Below, piece by piece: positions 45,752 to 63,888 of a DNA stretch of 64,000 nt. Within the stretch, counting starts at the first letter, position 1. Each line of letters begins with the position of its first letter. This DNA comes from Methanofollis liminatans DSM 4140 (lineage in GTDB: Archaea > Halobacteriota > Methanomicrobia > Methanomicrobiales > Methanofollaceae), in contig NZ_CM001555.1 of the NCBI RefSeq assembly GCF_000275865.1, positions 124,001 to 188,000 on the forward strand. Reading direction: 5' to 3'. A model generated the notes under the pieces. The model was not told where the DNA came from. It worked only from the letters and a program-made list of their open reading frames with translations, and searched no databases. The translations under genes were made by a program, and so were the position numbers.

Positions 45752-45789
45752 AGTTTACAAAATCCACAATTCTGTTCCATTTGTAAACT
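45752..45789. promoter_or_regulatory. Inverted-repeat operator upstream of the XRE-IrrE gene
   Basis: Perfect 10-bp arms AGTTTACAAA (45752-45761) and TTTGTAAACT (45780-45789) flank an 18-bp spacer, ending 17 bp before the start codon. The position and symmetry suit binding of the XRE-family protein encoded just downstream (autorepression). The rest of the 250-bp gap to the PLD-helicase holds A/T-rich promoter-like sequence. Confidence 0.6.
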
Positions 45790-45806
45790 GACGGGGAGAA
45801 AAGGAT

Positions 45807-46841: not shown

Positions 46842-47348
46842 GTGGGACACGAGGCAGGACCTTCCCCGGTCTGTGTCATCGACACGAATGTGCTCTTTGA
46901 CGCCGTCGCCGGCGGGATCCTGCCCGATCTCTTCGGTCTTGCGTGTGTATTTTTGATCACCGACATTGCGGTCAGGGAGGTCAGGACGATTCCCCTTCCG
47001 GACCTGCTCGATCTGGGGCTTGAGGTCCGTGAACTCACCGGCGCTCAGGTCCTTGAGATGCTCGAACTCAGGGGGAAAAATGCCCCCCTTTCCATCGCAG
47101 ATCTCTCGGTGCTGGTGCTTGCACGGCAGACCGGGGCGGTGCTCCTCTCGGGAGACGGGCCGCTGCGAACGGTCGCCCGGCGTGAGGGGGTGGAGGTGCA
47201 CGGCATCCTCTGGGTGCTGGATCGCCTTGTTGCCGGCGGGGTGCTGCCGGGGCGGAGAGCGGCGGAGGTGATCGGGGTGATGCGGCAGAACGGAAGCCGG
47301 TTGCCCCGGGAGGAGTGCGAGCGGAGGATCCGGGCGTGGATGCGGTAG
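46842..47348 (+). CDS. PIN-domain protein, putative toxin
   Basis: A 168-residue PIN-like ribonuclease. The first acidic motif VIDTNVLFD is at ~residues 12-20, and further acidic residues occur in SIADLSVLVLARQTG and LLSGDGPLRTVA, as in DUF3368-type PIN proteins. It starts with GTG directly after the stop of the XRE-IrrE gene. The pair matches the antitoxin/toxin arrangement COG2856-PIN often found on archaeal mobile islands. RNA target unknown. Confidence 0.83.
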   Translation: MGHEAGPSPVCVIDTNVLFDAVAGGILPDLFGLACVFLITDIAVREVRTIPLPDLLDLGLEVRELTGAQVLEMLELRGKNAPLSIADLSVLVLARQTGAVLLSGDGPLRTVARREGVEVHGILWVLDRLVAGGVLPGRRAAEVIGVMRQNGSRLPREECERRIRAWMR

Positions 47349-47383
47349 TTATGGGATGTTATTGGATCCCGGTGTATCTGTTG

Positions 47384-47440
47384 TGGTCTAGCTGGTTATG
47401 ACGTCGCCTTGCTATGGCGAAGGTGTGTCCAGCTAGACCA
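47384..47440. other. tRNA-like hairpin, possible integration-site remnant
   Basis: A 12-bp perfect outer stem (TGGTCTAGCTGG at 47384, CCAGCTAGACCA at 47429) encloses an inner 5-bp stem TCGCC/GGCGA with a 7-nt loop. The first half reads like the D-arm and anticodon arm of an archaeal tRNA-Val, but the acceptor stem and T-arm are missing. It lies in the 380-bp gene-free gap between the PIN gene and the AT-rich helicase island; the remainder of the gap shows only A/T-rich promoter sequence near 47700. Confidence 0.5.
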
Positions 47441-47728
47441 TGTGGCGGGCGCGGCGGGAGGAGTGTATACGTTATGACAGTGTTTGGGTTTTACCGGGCG
47501 TGAGGTGGAAATTGGATTCTTCAGTACTCATTACAGTTGAGAGTAGAACCACAGTCCCGCGGCGTCTCCGATGCCGTCTGAGTACAAAGTTTTCCTCAGG
47601 AGTCGCCATTGCTGCTTGCCACACTGGTATTGCCAGTCCAGAATCAACCAGACAATATCTTTGAAGTAAAACAACAATTTACAGCGCTAAATCGAAAATT
47701 TTAATCTATAATAAATAAATCCGAATCT

Positions 47729-49522
47729 ATGGTCTTATGTTATGAAAATTGGAATAATAGACTATTTAAATATTTTTTTAACGAAAATATGGCCTATCAA
47801 GAAGTTATCATATACGCAGACGCAGAGGTAATAACTAGAGTAGGCAGCCCAGAAGGGGATGTATCTGCCTTCCTCGACACGATAAAAAGTTGGAGTGGCT
47901 ACACTAACCGGAAATCTTTCTGCCAGAGGGCGCTGAGTACCTATAGAGCGTGGGAAAATAACCCTGAAAAGTTTTCCGAGCCACCATATTTCGCATACCT
48001 TGTATTTTTAATATACGCAGGCACCATCGAGGACCAAGAAGGACGTTCTTACTATCGAAAATTAAATACACTCTTAGATGACCTGGAAAGAGATAACCAT
48101 AGTCCCCCTTCTTTTAACCGAATGGAAACACTCTGGGAAGACCTGGACCGGTGGACGACACAGACTTGCAAGGGGAGGATTGGGAAGTTCACAAAAGTTG
48201 AAAGCCATTTTGTCCATGTAAGCAACCCCATATCGCAGTCCCTTCTATCGGAAGAAGACCGGAAGAAATTACCAAACATATTTTCGTGGGCAGCGATGTC
48301 CCCCGACACCCTCCCCTTAGAGGAGGAGGTGCGGCGTGCAATGGTGGACTATAATGGTCCAGGCGGGCTCAGTGCAAGGATCAGAAGGCTCCTTGAAAAA
48401 GTTGGAAAAAATAGGTCTGCTCTCAGTGAAAATGAAAATGCAGCATACATTTTAATGATGCGGCTTGTCTTTTCCGATCTCGTGAACTGGGACGGAAACA
48501 AGCCCTTAGACTTACAGGGTGGCCTGAGTTCCCGTGTGTGGATATGTATACGGGAGAAGGGGATCTTTACTTCCACAGGTGTTAGGGTCAGGTTACAGGG
48601 GGATAAATATTGTTCTTTCTATGATATTGATAGACTCTCTTTAAAGGTAGGTGACCAAGAGATTGACCTTTCATGTGAAGGTAGCCCGGGACATATCGGT
48701 TGGTCTAAGAGAGTGAACATTTGTCGAAACAATAATAAAAAAATGCTGGACACCCTCGAATTCCCTTCGATCTGGTCGGAGGGTGCGACTTTCATAGGAG
48801 ATAACGGAGAGTTCCTGGCCAGGCTACGGGGAGGTGATATACACATCTTCCGTGACGGTTCGGTGTGGAGTTTTGATGAGACGTGGGTTGAGGTAAACCG
48901 GCTAGAGAAAAATCATAGGCTCCTCATTGCATGTCGTGCTGAGGTCTCACGAAATGTTGAGAAGTGGGGGAGATCCTGCTGTCGAGCGTTCAAGGAGAGA
49001 CAGATATTGCAGTCTCTGACCGGGTGGATATTTTATGAAGTCGATGGCGTGGAAAAGGGTAATGAGGATATTTCCGGACTTTCAATCCCGGATTTTGCTA
49101 CTTCAAGACTTGAAGGGGGTTTAAAATTAAAAGATAAGAACAGGCATATCAAAAAGTACCTTCAGGGAGGACTTCCGGTACTCGTCCTGGAAGGGGGAGA
49201 TGGGGATGAGGTCGGTGTGCTCAGGACAGAAAATGGAGATCTAGTCCTCCAGAAAATGCCCGGAGAGGGGGATAGGTGGCTCTTACCGCAAGACATACCT
49301 GTGGGGACTCTTCTGAGGATCGAGATTGGCAGGTACGATGAAGATGGGATGTTCAGAAAAGTAGCCTATTCCCATACGATCACTGTCGAGCCGATTAAAA
49401 TAAAAAAGACTATACACAGTGTCTGGAGAGATTCCATTGGGGAAGTTGTCGACGACAAAGCGAACAACAGGCCGGTGATAAATGGCTACTCCATCCGAGA
49501 GGCCCAGGAGAGGGTGGACTAA
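47729..49522 (+). CDS. Uncharacterised protein A of candidate defence operon
   Basis: A 597-residue soluble protein with no domain that I can name. The N-terminal ~200 residues are helical (SYYRKLNTLLDDLERD), the middle (~270-400) is rich in short beta strands with Gly/Asp turns, and the C-terminus is mixed. There are no signal peptide, P-loop or Cys clusters. An A/T-rich box TCTATAATAAATAAAT precedes the frame; the ATG at 47789 (MAYQEVIIYADAEV) may be the real start since the box lies very close to 47729. It is followed without gap by gene B. Codon usage is AT-richer than in the core genes, suggesting transfer. Confidence 0.72.
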   Translation: MVLCYENWNNRLFKYFFNENMAYQEVIIYADAEVITRVGSPEGDVSAFLDTIKSWSGYTNRKSFCQRALSTYRAWENNPEKFSEPPYFAYLVFLIYAGTIEDQEGRSYYRKLNTLLDDLERDNHSPPSFNRMETLWEDLDRWTTQTCKGRIGKFTKVESHFVHVSNPISQSLLSEEDRKKLPNIFSWAAMSPDTLPLEEEVRRAMVDYNGPGGLSARIRRLLEKVGKNRSALSENENAAYILMMRLVFSDLVNWDGNKPLDLQGGLSSRVWICIREKGIFTSTGVRVRLQGDKYCSFYDIDRLSLKVGDQEIDLSCEGSPGHIGWSKRVNICRNNNKKMLDTLEFPSIWSEGATFIGDNGEFLARLRGGDIHIFRDGSVWSFDETWVEVNRLEKNHRLLIACRAEVSRNVEKWGRSCCRAFKERQILQSLTGWIFYEVDGVEKGNEDISGLSIPDFATSRLEGGLKLKDKNRHIKKYLQGGLPVLVLEGGDGDEVGVLRTENGDLVLQKMPGEGDRWLLPQDIPVGTLLRIEIGRYDEDGMFRKVAYSHTITVEPIKIKKTIHSVWRDSIGEVVDDKANNRPVINGYSIREAQERVD

Positions 49523-51124
49523 GTGAAGTGCACGGGTTGGGAATCAGCGGTTGGACAACCAGCCCTCTCCCTTACAGTGAATACCCTAACAGGTACAAAG
49601 GTATCAGGGCCTGAAGTTGAGGCGTGGTTTAGAGGTATCCGGGGTAGCAGTCTTTCTCTCTATTATAAAGGCGTGGCATACTTCAGGGTTACAAACTATC
49701 CCGAAAAAGGCTGGGAGTGTTTCCAGAGGGCACTCGACTCCGGGTTGACAGGACCGCAGGCGTGTCTATTAAAGGCCGAAAGAGTGGTGCGAGAACGTGG
49801 CTCCAGTCAGAGTATAGAATATCTGATGGACACTCTCAAGGCATGTGAAACACCCGAAGAAAAGGAGGCAATAAACGGTAAACTTGGCTATTTTTTCTAT
49901 TCTTCAGGGAAATATAAGGATGCGGTAGAACACTACGAGGTTGCAAGGAATATAAACTCTAGACTGGAGTGGCTCAATAATTTAGGGTGTTGCTATCTCA
50001 AATTAGGGGATGTAGAGGCAGGAAGGAGGTTTTTAAAGAGAGCAGCACAGTTGGCTCCATACAATGACAGGATCCAGAACAATAAATTACACTTGGATCT
50101 ATTGTGCGGGGGCAGACAGACGCTCTCAAAATCCATCGCTTCCTTTATGAGTTCAGGAGCCCTCGATAAGGGTCAGAAAGAGAAGTTTATATCCTTGGTT
50201 TCCTTGGCCTCAGAGATGGGTCAGATATCTGATGAGGTAAAAGAAGAGTATCTGTTACTTGCCGATCTGGCTTCAGGTAACGTCGAAAAGGCCATCATCG
50301 GTCTTACTGAGAAGAGAGAAGGATTCAAAGGTCTTGGAGAGGGGGTCGAGGCCGGAGTGTTCTCTATACTCTATAACTATGTCTGTACGGACTGGCCAGA
50401 TAGGTATTCTCAGGGGCTGAGGTGTGCGATACTCAATACCTGCAGTAGGCAGACTGTCCTAGATGGGCTGCAAAAAAATGCCATAGAAACAGAGGGTGAT
50501 CAGTGCATCGCCCTGAAATTTGTTTTGAGGGCGTTTGTACATGACATTTCGGTAGAACAAAATACAGACATCTTGAAAGACCTAACACAGGCGCTCGAAC
50601 ACGACTGTGAGGGACTTATAAGAATTGCTGAGGCTGATAGCGGTGTACGAAATTTAATACACCAGGTGGGCACGTCACTACACTGGGCGCACATCGGAAT
50701 AGAAAAGACCGACGCTGCAATGTGTGATTACTGTAGAGATGATGGCTTCAATGAAATAGACCCCAATAAATCATATTTTGAGAGTCCCATAATTTTTTAC
50801 AAAAATGCTCTCTTGATTTTCCCTCAAGATCTTGCCCTCTTGGAGGGATATGCTGACCTCTTAAAGGCTATCCGGTCCATAAGCAGTCTCCCGGAGGCAA
50901 TAGAGTTATATCAACGAATCATACAATTAGACTCCACCAAGGCTCAAAAAATCAATGAAAAAATAAATAATTCTCAAAGTTCTTTAAAGGGGTTACTAGA
51001 GTCAACTGATAGAAAAAAATATAGAGATAACAAAAAAAGAATAATTCTATTGACGGAAAGAGAAAAGAAGAGATTTATAGAAAAAGAGAAAGAGAGGGCC
51101 AGAAAAAAGAGATGGAGAAAATGA
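49523..51124 (+). CDS. TPR-repeat protein B of candidate defence operon
   Basis: A 533-residue helical protein with tetratricopeptide-like repeats in ~50-200 (YYKGVAYFRVTNYPEKGWEC, LGYFFYSSGKYKDAVEHYE, LGCCYLKLGDVEAGRRFLKR) and again at ~420-460. The last ~45 residues are a very basic coiled segment (REKKRFIEKEKERARKKRWRK), likely nucleic-acid or partner binding. GTG start immediately after the stop of gene A, and its end overlaps gene C by up to 13 bp. TPR proteins in defence operons often serve as scaffolds or sensors; the role here is inference. Confidence 0.75.
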   Translation: MKCTGWESAVGQPALSLTVNTLTGTKVSGPEVEAWFRGIRGSSLSLYYKGVAYFRVTNYPEKGWECFQRALDSGLTGPQACLLKAERVVRERGSSQSIEYLMDTLKACETPEEKEAINGKLGYFFYSSGKYKDAVEHYEVARNINSRLEWLNNLGCCYLKLGDVEAGRRFLKRAAQLAPYNDRIQNNKLHLDLLCGGRQTLSKSIASFMSSGALDKGQKEKFISLVSLASEMGQISDEVKEEYLLLADLASGNVEKAIIGLTEKREGFKGLGEGVEAGVFSILYNYVCTDWPDRYSQGLRCAILNTCSRQTVLDGLQKNAIETEGDQCIALKFVLRAFVHDISVEQNTDILKDLTQALEHDCEGLIRIAEADSGVRNLIHQVGTSLHWAHIGIEKTDAAMCDYCRDDGFNEIDPNKSYFESPIIFYKNALLIFPQDLALLEGYADLLKAIRSISSLPEAIELYQRIIQLDSTKAQKINEKINNSQSSLKGLLESTDRKKYRDNKKRIILLTEREKKRFIEKEKERARKKRWRK

Positions 51125-52164
51125 TCCCCGAAACGATTCCGGAACAAGAAAAATTTCTGTACTACCTGAGCGCCCTTGGCACCGTCGATAAGTCTGTGTT
51201 CCGACAGTGGTTCGGGGAGTTGTGCCTCCGCTCCGATGCAAAGGAAGATCTCAATATCAGTTTCCTGGAAAACCGGTATATCCGAGTGATGCAGTCACTC
51301 GGGCATATCGATGATAGTGGGGGGAAACTCTGGGTCTGCCCCCCTGTTTTGTCTTTTATACGGAAGGATCCGAAACCTATCGCTCTCTTAAGCGGGGCAT
51401 GTGACAGCGATCTTATATCAACATTGGACCACATCATCAGTACAGAGTTCCCACAGGGTGAGGTGCTCTGTGTCAAGCAAAGCCAATGCGTAAGCAGTGA
51501 CACTGTTCTGTTGTTCCCCGACGCTTTTTTTATAAAAAATATTGGCCCAGATGACCTCAGAGATGTTGCGAGGGCACTCGGTGCCGGTCTCCAGACTGAA
51601 GAAGCACCCCCGTCGATAGTATCTTTAGCGGGTGGTATAGACCAGATGAGCCAGCGCCTTGAGTGGAGAAAATATAGAGAGGACGAACCAATAAACTCTA
51701 TAAACCGTGTTTTCTCTCCCCATTTGCTCCACTTCACGGGGGATAGGGAAGATGGGAGAGACTATAGACTTGTCGAGTACAGGTTCAACTACTTATACGA
51801 GTACTGGATATGGGACGACACGGAAAAAGGGGCGGTCGTGCAAAGGGACTGGGGGAGGTATATGGCCCTCAATGCTGAGGGTGTAGACGTCCTCATCTAT
51901 GACGAGGACGCGGGTTCGCTCGCTGTTCCGACGAATGTCCCCCTACCGGTCAACCTCGCAAGGGCGGTGACGGCGTGTTCTGGCCTTGTGCCGTATGAGG
52001 TCTGGTCAGGAGACCTCAGGGGCCTGGGCCTCCACGCAAATAATGTACCTTTTGATGTCTATTTCGGTGTCCCTAAAGACGTAGGTGTGAGTGTCGCAGA
52101 GAAACTTGGCCAGAGGCTGGTTACAGTCGGGGGGGTCTTTCAGCCAGAACTCTGCACCCTTTAG
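51121..52164 (+). CDS. Uncharacterised protein C of candidate defence operon
   Basis: A ~347-residue protein without a recognised domain. The first ~90 residues (FLYYLSALGTVDKSVFRQWF...RYIRVMQSLGHIDDSGGKLWV) look like a winged-helix DNA-binding fold. The rest is mixed alpha/beta, with conserved-looking aromatic patches (YRFNYLYEYWIWDD). The ATG at 51121 overlaps the end of gene B by four bases (ATGA); the one at 51112 is an alternative. It converges on the giant helicase gene with 62 bp between the stops. Confidence 0.7.
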   Translation: MIPETIPEQEKFLYYLSALGTVDKSVFRQWFGELCLRSDAKEDLNISFLENRYIRVMQSLGHIDDSGGKLWVCPPVLSFIRKDPKPIALLSGACDSDLISTLDHIISTEFPQGEVLCVKQSQCVSSDTVLLFPDAFFIKNIGPDDLRDVARALGAGLQTEEAPPSIVSLAGGIDQMSQRLEWRKYREDEPINSINRVFSPHLLHFTGDREDGRDYRLVEYRFNYLYEYWIWDDTEKGAVVQRDWGRYMALNAEGVDVLIYDEDAGSLAVPTNVPLPVNLARAVTACSGLVPYEVWSGDLRGLGLHANNVPFDVYFGVPKDVGVSVAEKLGQRLVTVGGVFQPELCTL

Positions 52165-52226
52165 GAACTATTGTGCAGAGTTTAGCACCACCCTATCTCT
52201 TGCCTCAATGTCTCCATACTTTCCTA

Positions 52227-55200
52227 TTATTCCCCACCAGAAAGAACTCTTTCCAGACACCATGTTGGGCGCCGAACAAGGTTAAATGTGTCAATTGAAA
52301 TAATGGGATTTCTTTCGCCGATTTTTGCGTGGAGTCGTGCTTTAGCCGTCGATAGTAGACTGTCACCAGGTGTATTGAAGTCCCATAAGGGATGGCAAAT
52401 AATGATACCCATTTTTGAACCTGCACACTCTAGACAAATTACTGGGAGGCCGTATTCTGTGTTGTGGTCGAAAAATAAGGCCTGCCCTCCATTATCCCCT
52501 GCACTGTGCTCGATCATTCGAGAGAATGTCCGGGCTTCTCTGTCTGCATTATCAGGCCATCCCTTCAGTTCAGGGTATGTAAAATTTCCATCTAGACCAC
52601 AACGGTAATTCAGATCCCCCATAAGACGAAGGTAAGCTAGACCAAGTCTCCAGTCGAGAAGGCCGTGGTAGGGCATGTTTCTGTAGTTCATTATGCAACG
52701 ATAACATGCTGTTGTACATGGAGGCTTACCATCACCTCCGAATATATGTTCATCCGACAAGATAGAACCCATGAATGTTTCATTTCTGGGATTGGTGGAG
52801 AGTATATTGGGCAGCACCCTCTCCTTCCAGTTGTTGTACAACCACAAGCTGAACCCAGAGCCGTTGGGTAGTTTGTCTGCTATGACAACCTGCCCTACAT
52901 TTTCCTCTCCGGATATAGGTGAAGGTATGCTCATTGGCTGGATACGACAGATGTCCAGTTCTTCAGGGTCGATGTCGAGCATGTCCCCCACCACACTCCT
53001 TATGATAAATGCAGAGGAATATAGAGCAGATCTGGTTGTTTCCGTTGATGAAAGTGGATTTACTAGTATTCCTGATGGCTTTTGCTGAATATTATACCTG
53101 AAAATATCTGTTACTTTTCTTGAAGCGATTGCTATTTTTCGTACCTCTTCTTCACCACCGCTTTCGATTTTCCCCATAATATACTGGGATATGGCATCTT
53201 TATCCCTGACGCGATCATTTTGTTGGTCTTCAGCAATCCACTGTTTTGCACGAATCTTGGACTCGTAGTACCTTTTGGATTTTCTGTCGTATTGATAGCA
53301 TTTAGATGGGACATACGACCCTGCAAACAGTTTTGGATGAATTCCAATCCGGTTATCATTGATCTTCCAGACAGGGACTCTTTCACTGAATGAAACCTTC
53401 CAGTTCTCGTTTCCTCTCTCTTTAGGGGAGGTGGATCGGTGTTCAGCAATGGTTAATGATGTCCTGTTGAAGACGTTGTCTTCAACAATGTCATGCCCTC
53501 TCCATAAATCCGTACGAAAACCAGCAGGTACTGCGACCCAGTAGGCTTCGATCTCTTCTGGCCTGGCCTGATGGCAGAATGGGCACTCTTCTGCATCGTG
53601 AAGAGGTTTTTTTAACAATATTTTGACTCCTCCACATCTGCGGCACCGTTGAATCCATCGTATAAACTTCAAGGGATCGTTTTCCTGGCCGGCAGGTTTC
53701 CATACAGCCCATTTATTCTCAAAAGATTTCCTGAGGGGTACAGAAAAGCCGATTGAGGTATATACTGCCTTATCCTTTGTCTTCTGGGCGCCCGGAGCGA
53801 ACTCCGTAACTGCAAGGTCGAGGCTGCGTGATATTGAGTATGGCTCAGTCCTTTTTGATTCTTTGTCGGGGAGGCCGTGCATGAGCACTCGCTCGTCTGT
53901 AGGCATTCCGTACATTGGCAAGATCGCCATCTCCGCAAGCCTCTGTGCTAGACCCTCACCAATGATGTCATCCCTTTCAAGGGCTTTATCCAGTTGTTCT
54001 GGCAGTACCCTTGTCACATAATCCCGGAGGTGGGCTACTTTTTTTTCTGCCTTTTTCTGTGGGGTGCTGGGGTCAACAAATGCCATTATTATCTGTTCTC
54101 GGGCACTTTTTCCAGCATCACCCATGAGCCACTCTCGTACTTTTTCATGGACACGCCGATCTTTCGCTCCCTCTTCTATGCCCTGGAAAAGTACAGATGT
54201 GCCAAACTCTCCGTGAATGTCGCCGCCTCCAGGGCAGTCTTTTTTCGTGACGCCTGCATATTTAAACGCCAACCGGAGTGCCTCTTTTGCGACGAGACGA
54301 TCCAGTATGCTTTCATTCTCGTCTTCTTTCATCGAGAGAAATGGCATGGGGGGCTTGCTGCCCGTCATATATGAAGGATCAGAGTAATGATACTCGTCGT
54401 GACTCCTGCCACCTCGGCAGAGGGTGAGGACAAAAGAATATGCCTGCCCCCTCCTTCCTACCCTGCCAGCCCTCTGTTGATAATTAAACCGCTCGGGCGG
54501 CATGTTTGCAAGAACTACTGCCCTGAGAGTACCGATGTCGACACCCACTTCCATCGTCGTCGTCACACTGAGGGCATCTATTTCTTGTGCTTTCTTTTTT
54601 TCCTGTTTCTCTCCCCCAGGGCACTCAACAAAGATTCCTCGGAACTGCCTCTGGCGCTGTGCCGGGTTATCAGTTTGACCGGTGAGTTCTTCACAATGAA
54701 GACGAATCAACCTTTCATGCTGGTCTGTTGATCCTTCCTGCCAAAAACTATGCGAATAGTAGTTTCTCTTCCGGATTTCATTACACTCCAAAGAAGGATC
54801 CCCGGACAATGGTGACAGACATTCAGTACATATTCCAGCAGAGGGATGGAGGTGCGGCCATTTGCAGTTTGGACAGATCCATACAGGTGTGTTACTTTTT
54901 GTGGGGACGATGACTACCTCACCTATGTTAACAATCAAGTTTGGATGCCCGCATCTAGCGAGGAATTCAATTATTGAGTTCCCAACAACTTCGGGATTTG
55001 TGCCCCACATTTCAGCCAATTTTCCGAGAAAATTTTTGATCTTTTTTGAGGTAATGGATCGATAGTCTGGAAATTCTGTGACGTTGAAATCGGATGCATC
55101 ATATCTGTAGGTGTCGCCCAGTATCCGTATCATCGAATCACAGGCCTGCTGAAATACTTCTGGTTTGCAATTGCACTGAGACCCATAGTATTCAAGTGCT

Positions 55201-58200
55201 AACCTATAGACCTCAGAATAGGGCTGACCCTGACAACCTTCAAGACACTCTTCAAATCTTTCAATGCTGATGGCTGTTGGGAGAGCTTTTACGAAGCCAA
55301 GGCCTGAAGACTCCAGGCTGTAGAACAATTTAGGGAACAAAAAGTTGCTTATCCCCTTGTAAAGATCATTTATTATCTTTACTCGTGCTTTTTTCTTGTC
55401 ATCGTCATCGGTGGGCAACCACTTGCCAGTCTCCATATCAAATAGATCGTACCAAGTGAAATAGCGAACAATATTGATCGTTTTACCTTCCGGGAAATTC
55501 TGTTCGGTCTTAACTTCTATCTCTTGCTCTGAAAACCGTGTGCCACCAGGGGAGACACCCAGTTGAACAAATCTCTCTACTAGATATCCCGGTGAGTCAC
55601 CCAGACCTTTTTTGACCGCAGCAGGTCTGGCAACAAGATCATATATGGGGACTGGTGGCAGGCCATTATCCATAGGTTCAAAAAACATTAACCTGCTTTG
55701 GGCAGATGAATACTCCTTTCTCAGTATATCAAGATCATCAGGATCAAGATCGGGGTTGTCTTTAATCTGCTTGCTCGTCCGTCTTACATCTTTTACAATC
55801 TGCAGGATGTCTGGAGAATAGAGATTTATATAGTCGCTTGTTTTTTGGGAAAACTGGCTCTTTGAAAATTCATGTATCTTATCCTTGTTTTTTGTTTTGG
55901 TGAGATCTTGTAGGTGCGTCCTGATCTCATCTATGAGATACTCTTTGCCTTCGGCTACGACCAATATCTCTCTGAACAAAATTTCCCTGATGAGTTGTTT
56001 GTACTGCTCCTGCTCGATGCCGGCAGCGGTCGTTGCCGCCTCTTCCCTGCTGTCTGAGAACACAACGACCTTTCTCTCTTCAGCTGGCAGGAGGGAGAAG
56101 AGTTCCTTCGTGAGCGTCTGTGTAAATTTTGAGAAACCTGTCCTGAACCCGCGGATAGGGGAGGAAATATATCTTTTTTTGAGGTAGTTCGCCCCACACT
56201 CTGCACAGACTGTTGGAAGTGCGCGGAGAGTTTCTGCCTTTTCAGGCCCTCCAACCATTGTAAGGATATCACGGAAAGAACCCCGATTTTCTATCCCAAT
56301 CTCATAAATATACCCCTCAAACCATTTTTCTGGGGATAATCCAGGGTCCTCGCGAGAAAATTCCCCTGTTGAATAGTTCATCCATGTGTGTCTCCAGTGT
56401 CCCATCAATAACTGATCATCAAAATGCCTATCCTGTTTTTCCCACAGTTCCCAGTTGCTGCTGGCTATTCCTTCTAAAAACGATCTATTTTTTGGTTTGG
56501 GATAAAATATGCCATATTCCCGATAATTTCTCAGATTGACCTGGACATCAATACTTCTTTCAGGTATTCCTGAAAGTTCAGGGTCTAACGGCAAGAGTTC
56601 TTTTGTATCTTTGTTGTTCAGAAGCCTGTAGCCACCAAGATATACTGCACCGCACCGTTCGCAACGCAATAGTTCAAGTACGCGGGAACCACTGTCGCCC
56701 GGCGTAAGGTAGCAGGGATGGGAAAAAAGTTCACCGACCGGCCGCTCCTCACCGCTGGAGATGCTTCCATTACTTGTCGGCTCCGTAGATGCCCAGAGGC
56801 CATCCAAGTTCCTGAAAAACCAGTGGAAACGGAATAATGGTAGGATGTTTTCGTCTATTTCAGGGGAGTTTCCGATAAATCCGCTGAGATCCTGATTGTC
56901 TGGATCTTTATACCCATCACATAAACCACGGGCGATAAAGAGTCCCCGAACAGCCTGTTCATTATATGGTTGAGCAAAGATTCGCTCTCCAAATGTTTCT
57001 ATCGATTCTGCCTGGAAGCCTCCGGACTCTTTGTTGTAGAGTGCAGAGAGTAGCCTCTCCCTGATGTTGAGCTCTTTTGAACGGAACAGCACCGTCAGGG
57101 CTGCAGCGGCAGAGCCAGTGTTAGGATTATAGGGATAGCCCAACGCATGGGCTAGTTCGACTGCTGTGCGTCTGCAGGCTTCATCTGTATTGGAGGGGCT
57201 GCTACCGTATCTCTCATAGTCCTCTGCAAGGCACTCAAAGGCATGGGCAAGCCTATTCCACTCCATATCTGTGAGTCCTTCAGAGGATCCTGTCGTCTGC
57301 TCAAGAGCGCCCTCTATGACTTCAAATTTTTCCGCAGGCGCCCCAAACATCTGATGAAGGAACTCTTTTGCACTCAAACCTATGTTTCCATCCTCCTCCA
57401 GGGATGCGCTGGACCCAAGGATCCGTAACTGGTCACTATCAGGCGTGAGCCCAAGGCGGTAGAGGAGGAGCCGAAGGAGGTAGGCAACTTCAGTCCCTGC
57501 CGTCCCACGGTAAAGATGAATCTCATCGAGCACCAGATGAAATAGTCTTTCCTTACCTGAATCACGCCCCTCTTTGAGCCAGTCCCGTGTTTTATCAAAG
57601 ATACCAGACTCCTCACCACGCATCATCATGATGCTGAGCATCGAAAAGTTCGTTATCAGGATATCTGGGGGATGTTCTTGCATGTCCCAGCGGGATCTCA
57701 TCTCTGCACCATTGAGATTTTGAAAAAAGAATGAGGCCTCTTTTTTTGCGTCTCTTAGTGTAGGGCTATCCTGGGTAGAGGCACTCTTGGAAAATAATTT
57801 TGCTCTGTCCGAGGCGTCTTCAAATTCTCTTAATTTTTTCCGGAGTTCACCTGACTTATATTTTAGCCCGATTGTATCCATTGATCTCCGATCACCGGTA
57901 ACAGGCGTGACCCCGGTATAACGGCCAAAATAGAAACGATTCCCATTTCTGTGTTTATTGAGCCATTCGAGCGCACTTTCAGAGTCTAACGCCTTGCGCA
58001 ATCGGACAAGTTGGTCTTCAACAAGGGCATTCATAGGATAGAGTATCATGGCTCGCACTGCAGCAGGCCGTGTTTCATTAATCCTCTGAGGGATCCACTG
58101 ACTTTTATGTTGCCAATAATCGTCCTGATGCTCACGCTTTTTCCGAGGTCTAGACCAGGTTTCTGCGTCCGAAGACTCTTTCACTAAATAGGCGAATATC

Positions 58201-58628
58201 GGCAAGAGAAAGGACTCTGTTTTTCCGGAACCGGTGCCAGATGTAATTATACAATGTCTGTCTCCTTTCAGTGCAACCTTTAACATCTCATACTGGTGCT
58301 GGTAGAGAGTGTGGTCTTGGCTGAAGAGGCCACATGTAGCGAATTGTTTGAATTCCTTGAGTGTGCATTCGTCAAAAACATCATCAAGATCCTCTGTTGT
58401 GAGATCCCGTGTCTGATCTGACTGCTTGCTCTTTGAATCCAGCGACAAGCCTGAACTGCGATATGTTGGAAGGGCTTCAATCCATGGTTTCTGGCACAAA
58501 ACATCAGAATTTTTTAATTGTAATTCACGTTCAGAATTGATTGAATCATAGCGTGTCTTGAAGGTTGTCTGAACATAGCGTATAACTCCGTCTTTTACAG
58601 CATTATATGCACCAATTGGATCAATCAT
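52227..58628 (-). CDS. Giant SF2 helicase with DUF1998 domain (DruE-like)
   Basis: A 2133-residue helicase. Walker A is SGTGSGKTESF (~residue 128), the DEAH box is LVLDEIHLYRG (~365), and motif VI is QQRAGRVGRRGQA (~1382). Zinc-binding Cys pairs recur (CERCGAVY, CAECGANY, CPNCKWPHL...CTECL, CRRCGG...CPFC), and the C-terminus carries the DUF1998 signature CTTACYRCIMNYRN...HGLLDWRLG (~1970). Size and architecture match DruE of Druantia; related helicases occur in DISARM and Dpd systems. I chose the ATG at 58628, preceded by GGTGATTGATACCA, over the TTG at 58637. A TATA box is at 58671. The gene is AT-rich relative to the core. Confidence 0.87.
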   Translation of the reverse strand: MIDPIGAYNAVKDGVIRYVQTTFKTRYDSINSERELQLKNSDVLCQKPWIEALPTYRSSGLSLDSKSKQSDQTRDLTTEDLDDVFDECTLKEFKQFATCGLFSQDHTLYQHQYEMLKVALKGDRHCIITSGTGSGKTESFLLPIFAYLVKESSDAETWSRPRKKREHQDDYWQHKSQWIPQRINETRPAAVRAMILYPMNALVEDQLVRLRKALDSESALEWLNKHRNGNRFYFGRYTGVTPVTGDRRSMDTIGLKYKSGELRKKLREFEDASDRAKLFSKSASTQDSPTLRDAKKEASFFFQNLNGAEMRSRWDMQEHPPDILITNFSMLSIMMMRGEESGIFDKTRDWLKEGRDSGKERLFHLVLDEIHLYRGTAGTEVAYLLRLLLYRLGLTPDSDQLRILGSSASLEEDGNIGLSAKEFLHQMFGAPAEKFEVIEGALEQTTGSSEGLTDMEWNRLAHAFECLAEDYERYGSSPSNTDEACRRTAVELAHALGYPYNPNTGSAAAALTVLFRSKELNIRERLLSALYNKESGGFQAESIETFGERIFAQPYNEQAVRGLFIARGLCDGYKDPDNQDLSGFIGNSPEIDENILPLFRFHWFFRNLDGLWASTEPTSNGSISSGEERPVGELFSHPCYLTPGDSGSRVLELLRCERCGAVYLGGYRLLNNKDTKELLPLDPELSGIPERSIDVQVNLRNYREYGIFYPKPKNRSFLEGIASSNWELWEKQDRHFDDQLLMGHWRHTWMNYSTGEFSREDPGLSPEKWFEGYIYEIGIENRGSFRDILTMVGGPEKAETLRALPTVCAECGANYLKKRYISSPIRGFRTGFSKFTQTLTKELFSLLPAEERKVVVFSDSREEAATTAAGIEQEQYKQLIREILFREILVVAEGKEYLIDEIRTHLQDLTKTKNKDKIHEFSKSQFSQKTSDYINLYSPDILQIVKDVRRTSKQIKDNPDLDPDDLDILRKEYSSAQSRLMFFEPMDNGLPPVPIYDLVARPAAVKKGLGDSPGYLVERFVQLGVSPGGTRFSEQEIEVKTEQNFPEGKTINIVRYFTWYDLFDMETGKWLPTDDDDKKKARVKIINDLYKGISNFLFPKLFYSLESSGLGFVKALPTAISIERFEECLEGCQGQPYSEVYRLALEYYGSQCNCKPEVFQQACDSMIRILGDTYRYDASDFNVTEFPDYRSITSKKIKNFLGKLAEMWGTNPEVVGNSIIEFLARCGHPNLIVNIGEVVIVPTKSNTPVWICPNCKWPHLHPSAGICTECLSPLSGDPSLECNEIRKRNYYSHSFWQEGSTDQHERLIRLHCEELTGQTDNPAQRQRQFRGIFVECPGGEKQEKKKAQEIDALSVTTTMEVGVDIGTLRAVVLANMPPERFNYQQRAGRVGRRGQAYSFVLTLCRGGRSHDEYHYSDPSYMTGSKPPMPFLSMKEDENESILDRLVAKEALRLAFKYAGVTKKDCPGGGDIHGEFGTSVLFQGIEEGAKDRRVHEKVREWLMGDAGKSAREQIIMAFVDPSTPQKKAEKKVAHLRDYVTRVLPEQLDKALERDDIIGEGLAQRLAEMAILPMYGMPTDERVLMHGLPDKESKRTEPYSISRSLDLAVTEFAPGAQKTKDKAVYTSIGFSVPLRKSFENKWAVWKPAGQENDPLKFIRWIQRCRRCGGVKILLKKPLHDAEECPFCHQARPEEIEAYWVAVPAGFRTDLWRGHDIVEDNVFNRTSLTIAEHRSTSPKERGNENWKVSFSERVPVWKINDNRIGIHPKLFAGSYVPSKCYQYDRKSKRYYESKIRAKQWIAEDQQNDRVRDKDAISQYIMGKIESGGEEEVRKIAIASRKVTDIFRYNIQQKPSGILVNPLSSTETTRSALYSSAFIIRSVVGDMLDIDPEELDICRIQPMSIPSPISGEENVGQVVIADKLPNGSGFSLWLYNNWKERVLPNILSTNPRNETFMGSILSDEHIFGGDGKPPCTTACYRCIMNYRNMPYHGLLDWRLGLAYLRLMGDLNYRCGLDGNFTYPELKGWPDNADREARTFSRMIEHSAGDNGGQALFFDHNTEYGLPVICLECAGSKMGIIICHPLWDFNTPGDSLLSTAKARLHAKIGERNPIISIDTFNLVRRPTWCLERVLSGGE

Positions 58629-58670
58629 TGGTATCAATCACCCATATGATGTTTGAAAAAAGGTTTTTTC

Positions 58671-58679
58671 ATTATATAG
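58671..58679 (-). promoter_or_regulatory. TATA box of the giant helicase gene
   Basis: On the minus strand this reads CTATATAAT, about 45 nt before the ATG at 58628; the GGTGAT ribosome-binding sequence sits between. From 58680 to 58924 I see no supported gene. Confidence 0.5.
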
Positions 58680-58924
58680 AGGTATTGTTTTGAATATTCT
58701 CAAAAATAGGGCCTAAGAATGGAATATTTGAGCAGCAGCATGATCATGTGCTTCTGTGATTGATCTCTCTGACACGTATCGAGGTTCTGCGTGACTGAGC
58801 GTGACCGAGCAGTCCATGTGGTCGAACTTCTGGGGGTTGCCAGCAGGACGAACTACATGAATTTCAGGGAGCAGGTCATCAAAGCCCTGCGCCATTGTTC
58901 TCACTTTGAGATAGTGGTGATCTC

Positions 58925-59030
58925 CCCTCTCCCCTCAATACACCCTCCTCTCCGGAATAACCCCCCGCACACCGCCCCTCGGGTTCTCGATGTCCCCCCG
59001 GTACCAGGGGATCAGGTGGACGTGCAGGTG
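58925..59030 (-). pseudogene. Truncated second copy of the HIT gene 3' end
   Basis: These 106 bp match 59963-60068 (the 3' end of the intact HIT gene) with 99 identities. Translated on the minus strand they keep the frame and stop codon: HLHVHLIPWYRGD, then ENPRGGVRGVIPERRVY and stop at 58935. The copy ends exactly where an IS-like terminal repeat begins, so the rest of the gene is lost. The mostly silent differences suggest that it descended from a functional HIT gene of a related strain or element. Confidence 0.8.
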
Positions 59031-59349
59031 TCAACGGCGGTGCAAAAGTGTACAGATCGGACGGAAAAAAAGCGTACACTTGATCAGATAATGATATCGG
59101 AACTCATCCCGGCAGGGTGTGTCCGGCGAAGCCCCTGCCTCCGTCGTTCCTTCAAGCGATAACTATCGCCTTTAATGTTCAGCGTCGTGCAGTGGTAAAA
59201 ATCCGGTCAGGGACCGCTGCAACAATCACATGGTCCGCGAAGATAATTGTCGAGAAGTGTTTCAAAGGTCGCCAATTTCAGCCTCTTCAGGTTATCGGGC
59301 CGGGATCTTTATCCCACCGAAACCGGGGAATTTTGCACCGCCGATGACA
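59029..59349. mobile_element. IS21-like element remnant, 321 bp
   Basis: Near-perfect terminal inverted repeats: the left end is TGTCAACGGCGGTGCAAAA (59029-59047) and the right end is TTTTGCACCGCCGATGACA (59331-59349), whose complement differs at one of 19 positions. The ends begin TGT and finish ACA as in IS21-type elements. Only a stub of a reading frame remains (ATG at 59090, MISELIPAGC, stop at 59162), so the element is internally deleted. No clear target-site duplication is visible. It interrupts the HIT gene copy on its left but not on its right. Confidence 0.68.
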
Positions 59350-59421
59350 CAGAGGGGAACTCGTTCCTGAGAATGGGGGGACAGCATGACAACCCGGGGT
59401 TTTGCGTCTGCATAACGGGAT

Positions 59422-59450
59422 CATTGTAAATATGATCAATACTTACAATG
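59422..59450. promoter_or_regulatory. Inverted-repeat operator of the RelBE-like module
   Basis: Perfect 8-bp arms CATTGTAA (59422-59429) and TTACAATG (59443-59450) with a 13-bp spacer end 4 bp before the antitoxin ATG. The position suits autoregulation by the antitoxin or the toxin-antitoxin complex. Confidence 0.55.
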
Positions 59451-59454
59451 GTTC

Positions 59455-59658
59455 ATGTCAGCCACAAAGCGCGTGCCCGTTTCGGAGGAGGTATGGTCCG
59501 ACCTCTCCACGCTGAAAGGCCCCGGTCAGACCTATGACGATCTTCTTGCCAGGATGATCGAGCAGGAAAAGAAGCGGCGCTTCATTGAGGACATGGATCG
59601 CATCGAAGAGGATGGGGACTTCGTGGAGCTGGACGTTGGCGCACAGAGTTCTGATTGA
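59455..59658 (+). CDS. Antitoxin of a type II toxin-antitoxin pair
   Basis: A 67-residue protein with an N-terminal ribbon-helix-helix-like segment (TKRVPVSEEVWSDLSTLKGP, then TYDDLLARMIEQEKKRR) and an acidic C-terminus suited to covering the toxin. It resembles short archaeal antitoxins of the VapB/DUF7557 kind. Its end overlaps the toxin gene by 23 bp. The inverted repeat directly upstream is the likely binding site. Confidence 0.78.
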   Translation: MSATKRVPVSEEVWSDLSTLKGPGQTYDDLLARMIEQEKKRRFIEDMDRIEEDGDFVELDVGAQSSD

Positions 59659-59926
59659 TCGGAAGGTCGGTGAATCCCTTCGTCGCCTCAGCCCCAAAAG
59701 CCAGCGGATCGTCATGGACAAACTCTCTGCTCTTGTGGAGGATCCCTATCCCGGCAACGGCAGCGACAAAGAGCGCCTCCATGTGCAGGGCCGTGATGAC
59801 ACCTACCGGATCCACATCGGCCACACCTACACTGCATTTTACCGCATTCACGAACCGGAAAAAGAAGTGCTGATCCTCGCGGTGATGTCGATCGAGCAGG
59901 CCCATAAAAAGTATGGATTTTTTTGA
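59636..59926 (+). CDS. RelE/ParE-family toxin
   Basis: A ~96-residue RelE-fold mRNA interferase or related toxin. The segments VLIDRKVGESLRRLSPKSQR and RVHIGHTYTAFYRIHEPEKE-like strands (here YRIHIGHTYTAFYRI) are typical of the family, ending with VMSIEQAHKKYGFF. The TTG at 59636 is the best start, following GGAGCTGGACG within the antitoxin gene; an ATG further upstream would read through the antitoxin in another frame. Active-site residues cannot be confirmed by eye. Confidence 0.78.
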   Translation: MAHRVLIDRKVGESLRRLSPKSQRIVMDKLSALVEDPYPGNGSDKERLHVQGRDDTYRIHIGHTYTAFYRIHEPEKEVLILAVMSIEQAHKKYGFF

Positions 59927-59972
59927 TCCCAAACACCGCATGGCGCAGGGCATATACTCTCCCCCTCTCCCC

Positions 59973-60350
59973 TCAATACACCCTCCTCTCCGGAATAACT
60001 CCCCGCACGCCGCCCCGCGGGTTCTCGATATCCCCCCGGTATCGGGGGATCAGGTGGATGTGCAGGTGCATCACCGTCTGGCCGGCTGCCTCGCCGACAT
60101 TCACGCCGACGTTGTAGCCGTCGGGGTTGAACTCGCGGTCGAGGTGGGCCTTCGCCTCCCTGACCAGGGCGAGGAGGGCGGCCTCCTCCTCCCCGGTGGC
60201 GTCGAAGAGGTCGGGGAAATGCCTGAACGGGATGATCAGCAGGTGGCCCGGGTTCACCGGGTAGCGGTCGTACCTGGCATAGCAGAGGTCGTTTTTGAGG
60301 ACGACCTCTGAGGGTTCGGGGTTGCAGAACGGACAGGTCATAGCGCCCAT
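59973..60350 (-). CDS. HIT-family (histidine triad) nucleotide hydrolase
   Basis: A 125-residue HIT protein that acts on nucleoside-phosphate conjugates. The signature HLHIHLIPRYRGD (histidine triad) lies near the C-terminus; CPFCN and a His-rich middle (GHLLIIPFRHFPD) complete the family pattern. GC content is high, like the core genome, in contrast to the flanking islands. It starts at 60350 with GAGG upstream; the ATG at 60341 is possible. Its last 106 bp are duplicated at 58925-59030. Confidence 0.93.
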   Translation of the reverse strand: MGAMTCPFCNPEPSEVVLKNDLCYARYDRYPVNPGHLLIIPFRHFPDLFDATGEEEAALLALVREAKAHLDREFNPDGYNVGVNVGEAAGQTVMHLHIHLIPRYRGDIENPRGGVRGVIPERRVY

Positions 60351-60410
60351 GCCTCGTAGCCCCTGATCTCAATTAAATCTTCATATTCAATTTTAATACA
60401 GAAACAGGGC

Positions 60411-60707
60411 TCAAAATTGTTTTTTCTTATCTTTATCGGTGTTAACTTTCTGATCCAAATCCTTACCGATCTCCTCAATGATTATGTGTGGCTTTTTGAA
60501 CTCATACACCTTCTTACGGCGGTCATCGCTCAAGCGATGGGAAATGATCCATCCAGACTTTACAAGAATCGGAAGTACCTGACCAGCATAAGATTTTGAG
60601 ATATTAAGTATCGTTTGAGCATCTGTATGCGTGAACTTTTCACCTTTTTTTACGAAATAAAGCAGGGAAAATTTCTCGAGGAGGTTTTTGGGGATTGATT
60701 GGGTCAT
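60411..60707 (-). CDS. Winged-helix regulator divergent from dpdA
   Basis: A ~98-residue protein with a MarR-like winged helix-turn-helix (KNLLEKFSLLYFVKKGEKFT, DAQTILNISKSYAGQVLPILVKSGWI, then the wing HRLSDDRRKKVYEF) and a basic, Lys-rich tail. The ATG at 60707 is preferred; a TTG at 60719 would add four residues. It faces away from the dpdA operon across 77 bp that contain a shared TATA region and an inverted repeat, so it is the natural candidate regulator of that operon. Confidence 0.78.
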   Translation of the reverse strand: MTQSIPKNLLEKFSLLYFVKKGEKFTHTDAQTILNISKSYAGQVLPILVKSGWIISHRLSDDRRKKVYEFKKPHIIIEEIGKDLDQKVNTDKDKKKQF

Positions 60708-60749
60708 TCCTATGTTCAATATCGAGGAAAAATTACTTATACATATGAG

Positions 60750-60772
60750 TAGTCTACCTATTTCCTAGACTA
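60750..60772. promoter_or_regulatory. Inverted-repeat operator between the wHTH gene and dpdA
   Basis: Perfect 7-bp arms TAGTCTA (60750-60756) and TAGACTA (60766-60772) flank a 9-bp spacer. A TATA-like box CTTATACATA is at ~60737-60746, so the repeat covers the expected dpdA transcription start and would block it when bound. Confidence 0.5.
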
Positions 60773-60784
60773 ATTGTTGATGAC

Positions 60785-61813
60785 ATGGTACAACTCAAAA
60801 TAATTCAGACAGCCACGCGAGAACTTGAAACACCGGCCTTCTTTCCCGTACATAACGGGGGAAAAAGTGCTGAGGGAAATACACCCCGATACTGGGAAAC
60901 CATTCCCGAAATGAACACGATGATGATCAATGCGTATTCTATTCTTTCCAGTCCGTTGTATGAAAAAATGGGAAATGGTGGGCTTCATAAAAAATTTTCA
61001 GAAAATGGGGTTTTCTTTGTCGATAGTGGAGGTTTCCAGCAGAAGAGCCGCAACATCACTCTCGACCCTATTAAAATACTTCGGGTTCAGGAGACGGTCG
61101 GCGCCGATATTGCTGCGACACTGGATTTGCCAACGTTCACGGAGGACTGCATCTACAACCAGAATCATGCAGATTTCGTCAAGAAGTCCGTTAAAAATGC
61201 ACTCATTGCCCTTGAGAACCGAGAACGTGAAGATATGCTCATCTATGCATCTTTGCAGGGGAACGATCCCGCAATGATGGTGAACACCATCGATTACCTG
61301 ATGAAAAAGGGTAATTTTGATGGCTTTGCAATCGGCGGCTGTGTCCCCAAACGCTCCAGGTATCACGAGATCATAGACATCATCCATGCCGTACGGCGAC
61401 GAATCGGCGATCGACCTCTTCATGTTTTTGGCCTGGGAGGGCCGGCCATGATCCCCCTCATGGTGTATATGGGGGCAGACACCTTTGATTCATCGGCATT
61501 TATCACAGCCGGATCAAAACGCCTCTATTTCATGCCAGAAAAAGGGACAATAGAATTTTCTGATATTCCTGAAACACTATATCTGCCTTGTGTATGCCCG
61601 GTCTGCAGCAAGCATACCTACCACGAGGTGCGCTCAGAGCGAAAACTCATTGCAATGCACAATCTCTGGATGATAACGCACGAACTACGGAAACTGAAAG
61701 TCGCCCTTGAAGAGAACGAGGTTGAGCGCTACCTTGAGAAACGATTAAGGCACAATCCCGCGGTTTACGACGCCTTCCGCTACGCAAAAACAAAAAAAAG
61801 AGGTCTGGTATGA
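60785..61813 (+). CDS. dpdA: DpdA-like DNA 7-deazaguanine transglycosylase (TGT fold)
   Basis: A 342-residue member of the tRNA-guanine transglycosylase superfamily. The substrate Asp is in FVDSGGFQQKS (~residue 80), the nucleophile Asp is in GADTFDSSAF (~234), and the zinc site is CVCPVCSKHT (~271) with the His in LIAMHNLW (~291). It lacks the PUA and C-terminal domains of archaeosine TGT (ArcTGT), is too short for it, and stands in an island next to helicase-type genes. This fits DpdA, which exchanges guanine in DNA for preQ0. Archaea already make preQ0 for archaeosine, so the precursor is available. It heads a three-gene coupled operon. Confidence 0.82.
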   Translation: MVQLKIIQTATRELETPAFFPVHNGGKSAEGNTPRYWETIPEMNTMMINAYSILSSPLYEKMGNGGLHKKFSENGVFFVDSGGFQQKSRNITLDPIKILRVQETVGADIAATLDLPTFTEDCIYNQNHADFVKKSVKNALIALENREREDMLIYASLQGNDPAMMVNTIDYLMKKGNFDGFAIGGCVPKRSRYHEIIDIIHAVRRRIGDRPLHVFGLGGPAMIPLMVYMGADTFDSSAFITAGSKRLYFMPEKGTIEFSDIPETLYLPCVCPVCSKHTYHEVRSERKLIAMHNLWMITHELRKLKVALEENEVERYLEKRLRHNPAVYDAFRYAKTKKRGLV

Positions 61814-62649
61814 GAAAGAGCCTGCGTCCAATAACATTTCGGAGAGTCGTCGAAGCGGCGTTCTGCGTAGAAGACGAGCACGAGCTATCATACCAACAAT
61901 TTCAGGATATTTTCGCCCTTTCAGCAAACAGATCTAAAGAAATTCTCCGTGAAATGGCACGAATGGGTCTGATATCGCAGGAAGACGATCATTACGTCAG
62001 AACAGAGACGACAGGACAGTTCGTACAGGCCGTCAGAGATGACGACTGGCTATCTGTCCATGATCTCATGATGGGATATCCGTATTATGCTGCGTTCTAT
62101 CGTGGGGTGAAGAATTCCGGACCTATCGAGTTACACGATCTCCAGGACCTCATCTCTGATGAAGAGTTCAACTTCAACGAAACAGCTCTCTCCGTTATCT
62201 CAGACTGGACATTGAGGATCGGATCGCTTCAACGGAACGTCTTCAACAACCATTATTATGACGTTGATGGCACAGGTGAATCCTTTACAAAGGTCTTATT
62301 GAATGCATACGATGACTTGAACCTCTCCGGGAGCGGGAACCTCAAACAACGATATGTCGAGATTCCGAAGATCCGGGAATATGTCTGTGAGCAATTGAAA
62401 ATTTCAAGAAAGAAGTTTGATACAACATTTGTCGATCTCTATGGGAACAATATTGGAAGATGGGAACTGGCCGGCGCTCCGATCACTACACACGCAAAAA
62501 AATCCAGCACTAAGATAAAATCTCTTGTTTTCTCTCAGATGCTCGATAGAGTGTCGATAGAACTCACATCTGATCGATATTTACAGGGGATCGAGTACGG
62601 GAGAAAGCAGTACTATTATCTGGCAATTCACACGAGGGATGTTTTATGA
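61810..62649 (+). CDS. Winged-helix protein of the dpdA operon (possible DpdG)
   Basis: A 279-residue protein with an N-terminal winged-helix segment (LSYQQFQDIFALSANRSKEI, then LREMARMGLISQEDDHYVRT, ~30-75). The middle is helical with acidic patches, and the C-terminal ~60 residues are beta-rich (RVSIELTSDRYLQGIEYG). Its start overlaps dpdA by four bases and its stop overlaps the ATPase gene by four bases. In bacterial Dpd clusters a winged-helix protein (DpdG) is next to an ATPase (DpdH); equivalence here is inference from order and fold. Confidence 0.75.
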   Translation: MRKSLRPITFRRVVEAAFCVEDEHELSYQQFQDIFALSANRSKEILREMARMGLISQEDDHYVRTETTGQFVQAVRDDDWLSVHDLMMGYPYYAAFYRGVKNSGPIELHDLQDLISDEEFNFNETALSVISDWTLRIGSLQRNVFNNHYYDVDGTGESFTKVLLNAYDDLNLSGSGNLKQRYVEIPKIREYVCEQLKISRKKFDTTFVDLYGNNIGRWELAGAPITTHAKKSSTKIKSLVFSQMLDRVSIELTSDRYLQGIEYGRKQYYYLAIHTRDVL

Positions 62650-63827
62650 GTGATTTAAAAATTATCATTTCTAAGAAAAATTATGAAGTTTTCGGGCTGA
62701 ATGCAAATCCGTTCCCCTATTCGGGTATACCCGATCAGGTTCCAAATATTTACGTCGGCCAACCGGAGGTGATGGGCAAGGTGAGTGCTGTTCTATCCTC
62801 GGTGTTCTCGACCGGCCACTCGAATCACCTGATCCTCACCGGATCCTATGGCAACGGGAAGAGTCACACCCTGAAGTTTATTCAAGCTCAGGTACAAAAC
62901 AAATTTTTTGAAGGTTCGGCCATCAAACCAGTTGCAGGATATGTTGCCCAACCTGGGGAGTCTTTTCTGGATATATACCGGGATTTTATCTACGACCTTG
63001 GTTCGGCGTATTTGAAATCATGTTCGCAGGAATATATCGGCACAGTATGCGAGGAGATATCGGAGAACGGGACGATCGAGGAAGACATTCAACCGGGGAT
63101 GGGCTGGCGAGCCATTGAGAAGGGAAAGGTCCTGCTCTCTGACATCGTCCCTCAGGCATATGTTCGGCTCTCCGAGTTGACGAGGTACCCTGATTTTTCC
63201 CGGGCGTTTTTGAACCTCTCCTATGAGGAGAATGCCTACACCTCATGGGAGTGGTTGAGCGGAGAGTCTATCGAGTATTCACGTCGGAGAGAACTGCATC
63301 TGACCTCGAACATCACGGCCCATCACGCACAACGTGCGTTTATGGCATTGAAGACGGCGCTGGAGGCGATCGGTCATTCGCCGATGATCATGCTCATCGA
63401 CGAGTTTGAATGTATCGAAACGCTTCAGGCCAGGACGAAACAGAATATGCTCAATGCACTCCGGCATTTGATCGATATCAATCCAACGGGTCTTTCGATG
63501 ATCATCGCCTGTGCGCCAGAGGTCTGGGAGCCACTTGTTGCCGAATATCATGCATTTTCTGATCGTATTGCAAAAGAAGCCAACCTGAAGCCTCTGGATA
63601 AGAATTCAGTTGTTCACCTTATCACTGAATACCTCAATACCTGTAGGCCGAATCCCTCTGATTCTCTTGAGCCATTCACTGAGGAGTGTGTGCAACGGAT
63701 TTTCGTGGAAGGTAACGGGAATGCACGGCGGATTATTACGATATGTGGTCAGGCGATTGATGAGGCTCTCTCGAAAGAGATGGAGGGTGTTGATCTGGGG
63801 GTGCTTGAACGTATGAGTGGAATATGA
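62646..63827 (+). CDS. AAA-type P-loop ATPase of the dpdA operon (possible DpdH)
   Basis: A 393-residue ATPase. Walker A is GSYGNGKSHTLKF (~residue 67), Walker B is MLIDEFECIE (~251), and the sensor-like IIACAPEVWEP follows. The N-terminal NPFPYSGIPDQVPNIYVGQ resembles Orc/BrxC/DUF2791-like loading ATPases. ATGA overlap with the previous gene. It probably loads or powers the restriction part of the system; the downstream genes are beyond the window. Alternative reading: a BREX-like BrxD ATPase. Confidence 0.8.
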   Translation: MSDLKIIISKKNYEVFGLNANPFPYSGIPDQVPNIYVGQPEVMGKVSAVLSSVFSTGHSNHLILTGSYGNGKSHTLKFIQAQVQNKFFEGSAIKPVAGYVAQPGESFLDIYRDFIYDLGSAYLKSCSQEYIGTVCEEISENGTIEEDIQPGMGWRAIEKGKVLLSDIVPQAYVRLSELTRYPDFSRAFLNLSYEENAYTSWEWLSGESIEYSRRRELHLTSNITAHHAQRAFMALKTALEAIGHSPMIMLIDEFECIETLQARTKQNMLNALRHLIDINPTGLSMIIACAPEVWEPLVAEYHAFSDRIAKEANLKPLDKNSVVHLITEYLNTCRPNPSDSLEPFTEECVQRIFVEGNGNARRIITICGQAIDEALSKEMEGVDLGVLERMSGI

Positions 63828-63888
63828 CATAATATCCATCATGCTGACTCAGTTAATATTCCATTCATCCACTCAATAAGATCAACAA

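Follow-up and report, generated by a model that had tools for sequence, protein, structure and literature searches.

Methanofollis liminatans DSM 4140, a methanogen by the two full MCR alpha matches in its genome, almost certainly carries a member of Druantia type IV, as judged from profile matches and the phylogeny of its helicase. The locus is of a known kind, clearly type IV, rearranged locally in an unusual way and holding one component that matches no known Druantia protein. Its helicase gene, druE, is inverted relative to druF and druL; its DruF is devoid of the C-terminal domain (C-domain) of other standalone DruF proteins; and a TPR protein of 533 residues is encoded between DruF and DruL. 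We infer that the locus acts in defence, and on balance we favour the reading that it is, as a whole, a variant form of this anti-virus system working by the mechanism proposed below. The features lie in a window of 64,000 nucleotides, the whole stretch of DNA that was analysed, and are given here with the evidence for each:

42425..64000: low-GC island holding the locus (GC drops from about 0.68 to 0.46-0.55; right end past the window)
47729..49522, plus strand: DruF core (gene A, 597 aa), without the C-terminal domain found in other standalone DruF (PADLOC DruF4, F-core HMM)
49523..51124, plus strand: gene B (533 aa), a TPR protein ending in a basic tail, candidate adaptor (Pfam TPR_2)
51112..52164, plus strand: DruL (gene C, 350 aa) (PADLOC DruL4, AlphaFold pLDDT 86.7)
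52147..52183: hairpin with an 11-bp stem, spanning the DruL stop, possible shared terminator (RNA fold)
52227..58628, minus strand: DruE, YprA-family SF2 helicase (2133 aa) (PADLOC, motifs and Cys pairs, tree)

A DruE helicase facing a three-gene operon

The druE gene is a single unbroken open reading frame of 2133 codons on the minus strand. We placed its start at the ATG at 58628 because the N-terminal residues MIDP are identical in five aligned homologues. DruE retains its helicase motifs (GTGSGKTE at residue 131, DEIH at 368, QRAGRVGRRGQ at 1385), and the Pfam matches to DEAD (110-218) and Helicase_C (1344-1394) put the two helicase halves about 1,100 residues apart, just as an earlier note on this DNA had described an SF2 core split by long inserts. 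The same note had counted at least four zinc-binding Cys clusters. Indeed, six CxxC pairs are invariant in five aligned DruE proteins (656/659, 808/811, 1252/1255, 1267/1270, 1662/1665 and 1682/1685), as are C1971, C1975 and C1978 of the C-terminal motif CTTACYRC. The DUF1998 label, also proposed there, holds by virtue of this motif and full-length homology but not by the Pfam DUF1998/MZB model, whose match of 16.4 bits falls below the 24.2-bit cut-off. The DruE sequence gave no evidence of an active Vsr-type or nuclease C-terminus; in type I and II systems, the Vsr-type C-terminal domain of DruE is predicted to be inactive (PMC12458937).

The identification of the helicase as DruE was borne out. 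PADLOC DruE2 and DruE4 profiles match residues 1-2128 with 1656, 1630 and 1560 bits, the DruE2 models slightly outscoring DruE4, against 547 bits for DruE1, 297 for DruE3, 73 for DpdJ and 32 for DrmA. Two further models for relatives stay far under their cut-offs: NF041067 (DpdJ) reaches 65 bits of the 800 required and NF038326 (DISARM DrmA) 24 of 999. The relatives with solved structures, 9wae (717 bits), 9tu7 and YprA itself (6znp), are DruE and YprA proteins. Dpd, DISARM and ARMADA/BRIGADE/TALON also use helicases of the YprA family; by the DpdJ and DrmA models this helicase differs from those of Dpd and DISARM, and the partner genes of all these systems are not found in the neighbouring operon. 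Druantia type III (DruH-DruE) shares the YprA-family core but differs in the low DruE3 score and in DruH, which had no match among the neighbouring proteins scanned.

The helicase gene faces the operon of genes A, B and C tail to tail, the stop codons lying 62 nt apart, an arrangement that the earlier note had read correctly. The hairpin at the junction is predicted at -17.4 kcal/mol on the plus strand (z -2.25 relative to dinucleotide shuffles), whereas on the minus strand it is no more stable than the shuffles (z 0.39); it is a possible terminator for both DruL and DruE. The operon itself had been called unknown, and the usual companions DruA-D, DruM/F/G and DruH unrecognisable. Neither statement survives: gene A matches PADLOC DruF4 with 333 bits (8.8e-100, residues 5-593), and gene C matches DruL4 with 154 bits (8.4e-46, residues 12-338 on positions 2-321 of the 330-position model), leaving B as the only one of the three without a Druantia match. 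DruM and DruG had no PADLOC match among the window proteins scanned, DruM and DruK are absent from the window and the 34 kb past its end, and the C5 methyltransferase family PF00145 has no match across the whole genome.

Type IV membership and genomic setting

Druantia type IV is defined by DruE, DruF and DruL without DruM and DruG, and has been recorded in 11 phyla (PMC8565338). Since DruF and DruL define the type, and PADLOC matched all three proteins, the locus is neither a new subtype of the kind proposed in the earlier note nor a separate system that has borrowed the motor. Type II (DruM-DruF-DruG-DruE) has DruF in common with the locus, as well as the slight advantage of DruE2 over DruE4; the presence of DruL and the lack of DruM and DruG matches among the genes scanned set DSM 4140 apart from it.

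The phylogeny suggested in the note led to the same placement. We used a tree of 92 DruE sequences and a DpdJ-like outgroup for the position of DruE only, because it comes from a quick search with SH-aLRT support, without bootstrap, and has a very long outgroup. DSM 4140 DruE is sister to two proteins from the same genus (L030 and L031; SH-aLRT 100, about 45% identity, end branch 0.8), inside a clade of 25 sequences (support 99) nearly all of which come with DruF and DruL. Both sister loci are canonical type IV: they encode DruF, DruL, DruE and a DruK-like nuclease in one direction, with a full-length DruF and no TPR gene, unlike DSM 4140. A match to DruF4 occurs in 3/232 genomes of the class. 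Together with two well separated type IV lineages in one genus, this rarity fits horizontal acquisition.

How far the neighbours are conserved could be judged from 92 DruE loci with their context, some of them taken from the same genus and order. A scan of genome contigs with the alignment of five DruE proteins had returned 80 loci and a scan of viral contigs 16, whereas a single DruE protein as the query of the genome-contig scan returned no match. DruF and DruL both match in 65 of the 92 loci, 48 of which have a C5 DNA methyltransferase and 39 a PD-(D/E)xK nuclease in the fetched DNA. We dropped the idea that these two neighbours were undescribed, as PADLOC already names them DruM and DruK. 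The absence of both from DSM 4140 is not unusual in itself, because ten cyanobacterial loci with DruF and DruL likewise have no DruM or DruK match. The orientation of DruE is another matter: in all 80 other loci with a DruF or DruL match these genes lie on the DruE strand, and DSM 4140 has the only convergent arrangement in the sample. Co-directional F-L-E order is usual and lies outside the type IV definition. Gene B occurs in none of about 95 DruE loci. Of the partners, DruF and DruL are known components of a known subtype and B matches no Druantia component; the suspicion of something unusual is partly borne out by B, by the missing C-domain and by the inverted DruE. In one further locus (L032, 4204-12390), DruE (41% identical) occurs without DruF or DruL; its neighbour is a divergent 718-aa protein matching DrmE_C, and an SNF2 helicase lies further along. 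This is possibly an unclassified DruE system.

The island contains other genes of interest. A protein with PLD, SF2 helicase and DUF3427 domains (42425-45556, minus strand; PADLOC mREase_IV, 735 bits) is a further defence gene, and an RmrA-like HTH and M78 protease regulator followed by a PIN/DUF3368 protein (45807-47348, plus strand) is likely a toxin-antitoxin-like pair of host-like GC. A 107-nt direct repeat (93%; 58924-59030 and 59962-60068), made up of the 3'-terminal part of a HIT-family gene (59973-60350, minus strand), brackets an antitoxin/ParE-like pair (59455-59926). Apart from this duplication, no inverted or direct repeats that might explain the flip of DruE were found. Directly to the right of the locus, from 60785 to the window end at 64000 and on to about 80731 (L003, L004), lies a cluster that looks like a distinct methanogen variant of Dpd. 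It has a DpdA-DUF6884 (DpdC-like) fusion (319 bits against the NCBIfam DpdA cut-off of 200), a TgtA-like paralogue, a BrxD-like ATPase, a 1062-aa PD-(D/E)xK and AAA_12 protein, a DpdJ-like helicase split into an 851-aa motor and a 691-aa MZB gene, and a 1118-aa AAA protein.

The DruF C-terminal domain and gene B

The PADLOC DruF4 model has 678 positions, and the DruF proteins cover it in two ways. A standalone DruF (L048) covers positions 1-677 and those of two other genomes (G290 and G168) 2-678, whereas a DruF-DruL fusion (L060) ends at 572 (1-572) and DSM 4140 DruF at 564 (3-564). We built separate HMMs for the DruF core and the C-domain. The core model matches DSM 4140 DruF to residue 573 (6.5e-154), and the C-domain model has no match in it; nor was the missing domain found in a six-frame search of the region. 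With these models the C-domain was present in 26/26 standalone DruF proteins and absent from 34/35 DruF-DruL fusions, counts to be read with the caveats that many of these standalone proteins had served to train the C-domain model and that most of the fusions form one Bacteroidota/Ignavibacteriota clade. The sole fusion that retains the domain is from Planktothrix (L053, 6934-9960). PADLOC coordinates and linker lengths are free of the training-set weakness. In fusions matching both modules almost completely, about 50 residues separate the two; standalone DruF proteins have at least 127 residues after the core, and DSM 4140 DruF is shorter than all of its standalone relatives.

AlphaFold models (pLDDT 78 for DruF, 87 for DruL) suggest that the N-terminal half of DruF is helical and is followed by beta-sandwich regions, and that DruL begins with a winged-helix-like domain. 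The structural matches are weak: DruF 457-557 resembles Ig/Fn3-like sandwiches (Z about 7.5 and rmsd 2.5-3.6 over 75-84 residues in the best single-domain rows) and DruL 9-77 winged-helix domains (Z about 6.5), both at background level or slightly above, and Foldseek gave no confident known fold for either protein at E <= 0.001.

Gene B sits where the C-domain of a standalone DruF would begin. Its GTG start directly follows the DruF stop (GGACTAA|GTG, 0 nt gap), and its end overlaps druL by 13 nt. The protein has a Pfam TPR_2 match (2e-10) and a net charge of +14 over its last 60 residues. Generic TPR matches were all that turned up in 392 genomes from the phylum and 232 from the class; plasmids and viral contigs held no homologue; and PADLOC and PHROGs gave nothing specific. 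In codon usage, gene B lies close to DruF (distance 0.31), DruL (0.37) and DruE (0.30) and well away from host core genes (0.82), within the range of the four genes generally (0.26-0.37 among themselves, 0.61-0.82 to host core genes). B therefore arrived with the system or is equally old in it. This argues against a recent separate insertion, with the proviso that co-acquired genes from similar sources look alike.

Proposed mechanism and competing explanations

In Druantia type III, DruE is both helicase and nuclease and acts on ssDNA-containing intermediates, and DruH is the likely sensor (PMC13192584); for type IV, no published account of a mechanism was found in the literature searched. By analogy, the DSM 4140 system probably targets DNA with DruE as its motor. 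From its anatomy and its relatives, DruE would be an ATP-driven DNA translocase or helicase serving as the effector motor, and DruF and DruL would be the module that licenses DruE upon recognising infection, or viral DNA that is entering or replicating. In standard type IV systems the C-domain of about 130 residues would hold DruF and DruL together; we infer this docking from its presence in every standalone DruF and its near-complete absence from fusions. In DSM 4140, where the domain is gone, the TPR protein would bridge DruF and DruL, and DruE would have moved into its own convergent transcription unit. We offer the replacement of the C-domain by gene B as a tentative proposal, and with a little more reserve the view that the locus stands for a subtype whose F-L link was swapped for a separate TPR adaptor and whose helicase was uncoupled into its own unit.

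Several points weigh against this proposal. Gene B is known from one locus only, so that no conservation shows it to belong to the system; fusions may have lost the C-domain on very few occasions in evolution, given that one clade holds most of them; and no nuclease partner (DruK) is present. The inverted DruE and the shortened DruF could equally mark a type IV locus in decay, in which an unrelated TPR gene landed in the 3' end of druF, removing the C-domain, druE was separately inverted, and B is idle. No other locus in the sample has this arrangement, B is without a homologue in any other DruE locus, and rearrangement has left signs nearby, such as the duplicated HIT gene end. Yet all four reading frames are intact and every DruE catalytic motif that was checked is kept, a 0-nt junction and a 13-nt overlap would rarely be expected from random insertion, the codon usage of B matches that of F, L and E, and loss of the C-domain is tolerated elsewhere where F and L are fused. 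We consider decay rather unlikely. It is somewhat less likely still that B, rather than replacing the DruF C-domain, travels in the operon as independent cargo, a toxin-like gene or a sensor of its own. TPR proteins often sense or bind peptides, and an Acidobacteriaceae locus (L072, 3170-6476) has coiled-coil, HSP70-like and 190-aa genes between druF and druL next to a DruF of 777 aa, so the F/L junction tolerates additional genes alongside a long DruF. In that locus, however, DruF is not shortened, whereas in DSM 4140 the shortening coincides exactly with B.

A distinct system, or a BRIGADE-like hybrid with the adjacent Dpd-like cluster in which 7-deazaguanine would mark self DNA for a Druantia without a methyltransferase, is very improbable. 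The two loci do adjoin in one low-GC island, BRIGADE combines YprA helicases with Dpd-like modification (PMC12458937), and the genome has no C5 methyltransferase match. But the helicase is clearly a Druantia DruE and apparently not ARMADA-like, the Dpd-like cluster has a split DpdJ helicase of its own, and the ten cyanobacterial type IV loci do without a DruM match as well. At least six other genomes of the class have the DpdA-DUF6884 gene; in one (G217) about 1.8 Mb separate it from DruE, and another (G247) has no DruF4 match. We treated the cluster as a separate system because DpdA recurs in this way, and rejected a functional link because the adjacency is not conserved, which mostly refutes the hybrid reading.

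In conclusion, the C-domain pattern provides a concrete and cheap hypothesis on how DruF and DruL are joined, for which the DSM 4140 locus is a natural test. The locus adds to Druantia type IV a DruE-inverted arrangement without DruM and DruK, in a methanogen. If the proposed replacement is true, the DruF C-domain would be a dispensable F-L tether, kept where DruF and DruL are separate proteins and missing where a fusion or a bridge joins them.
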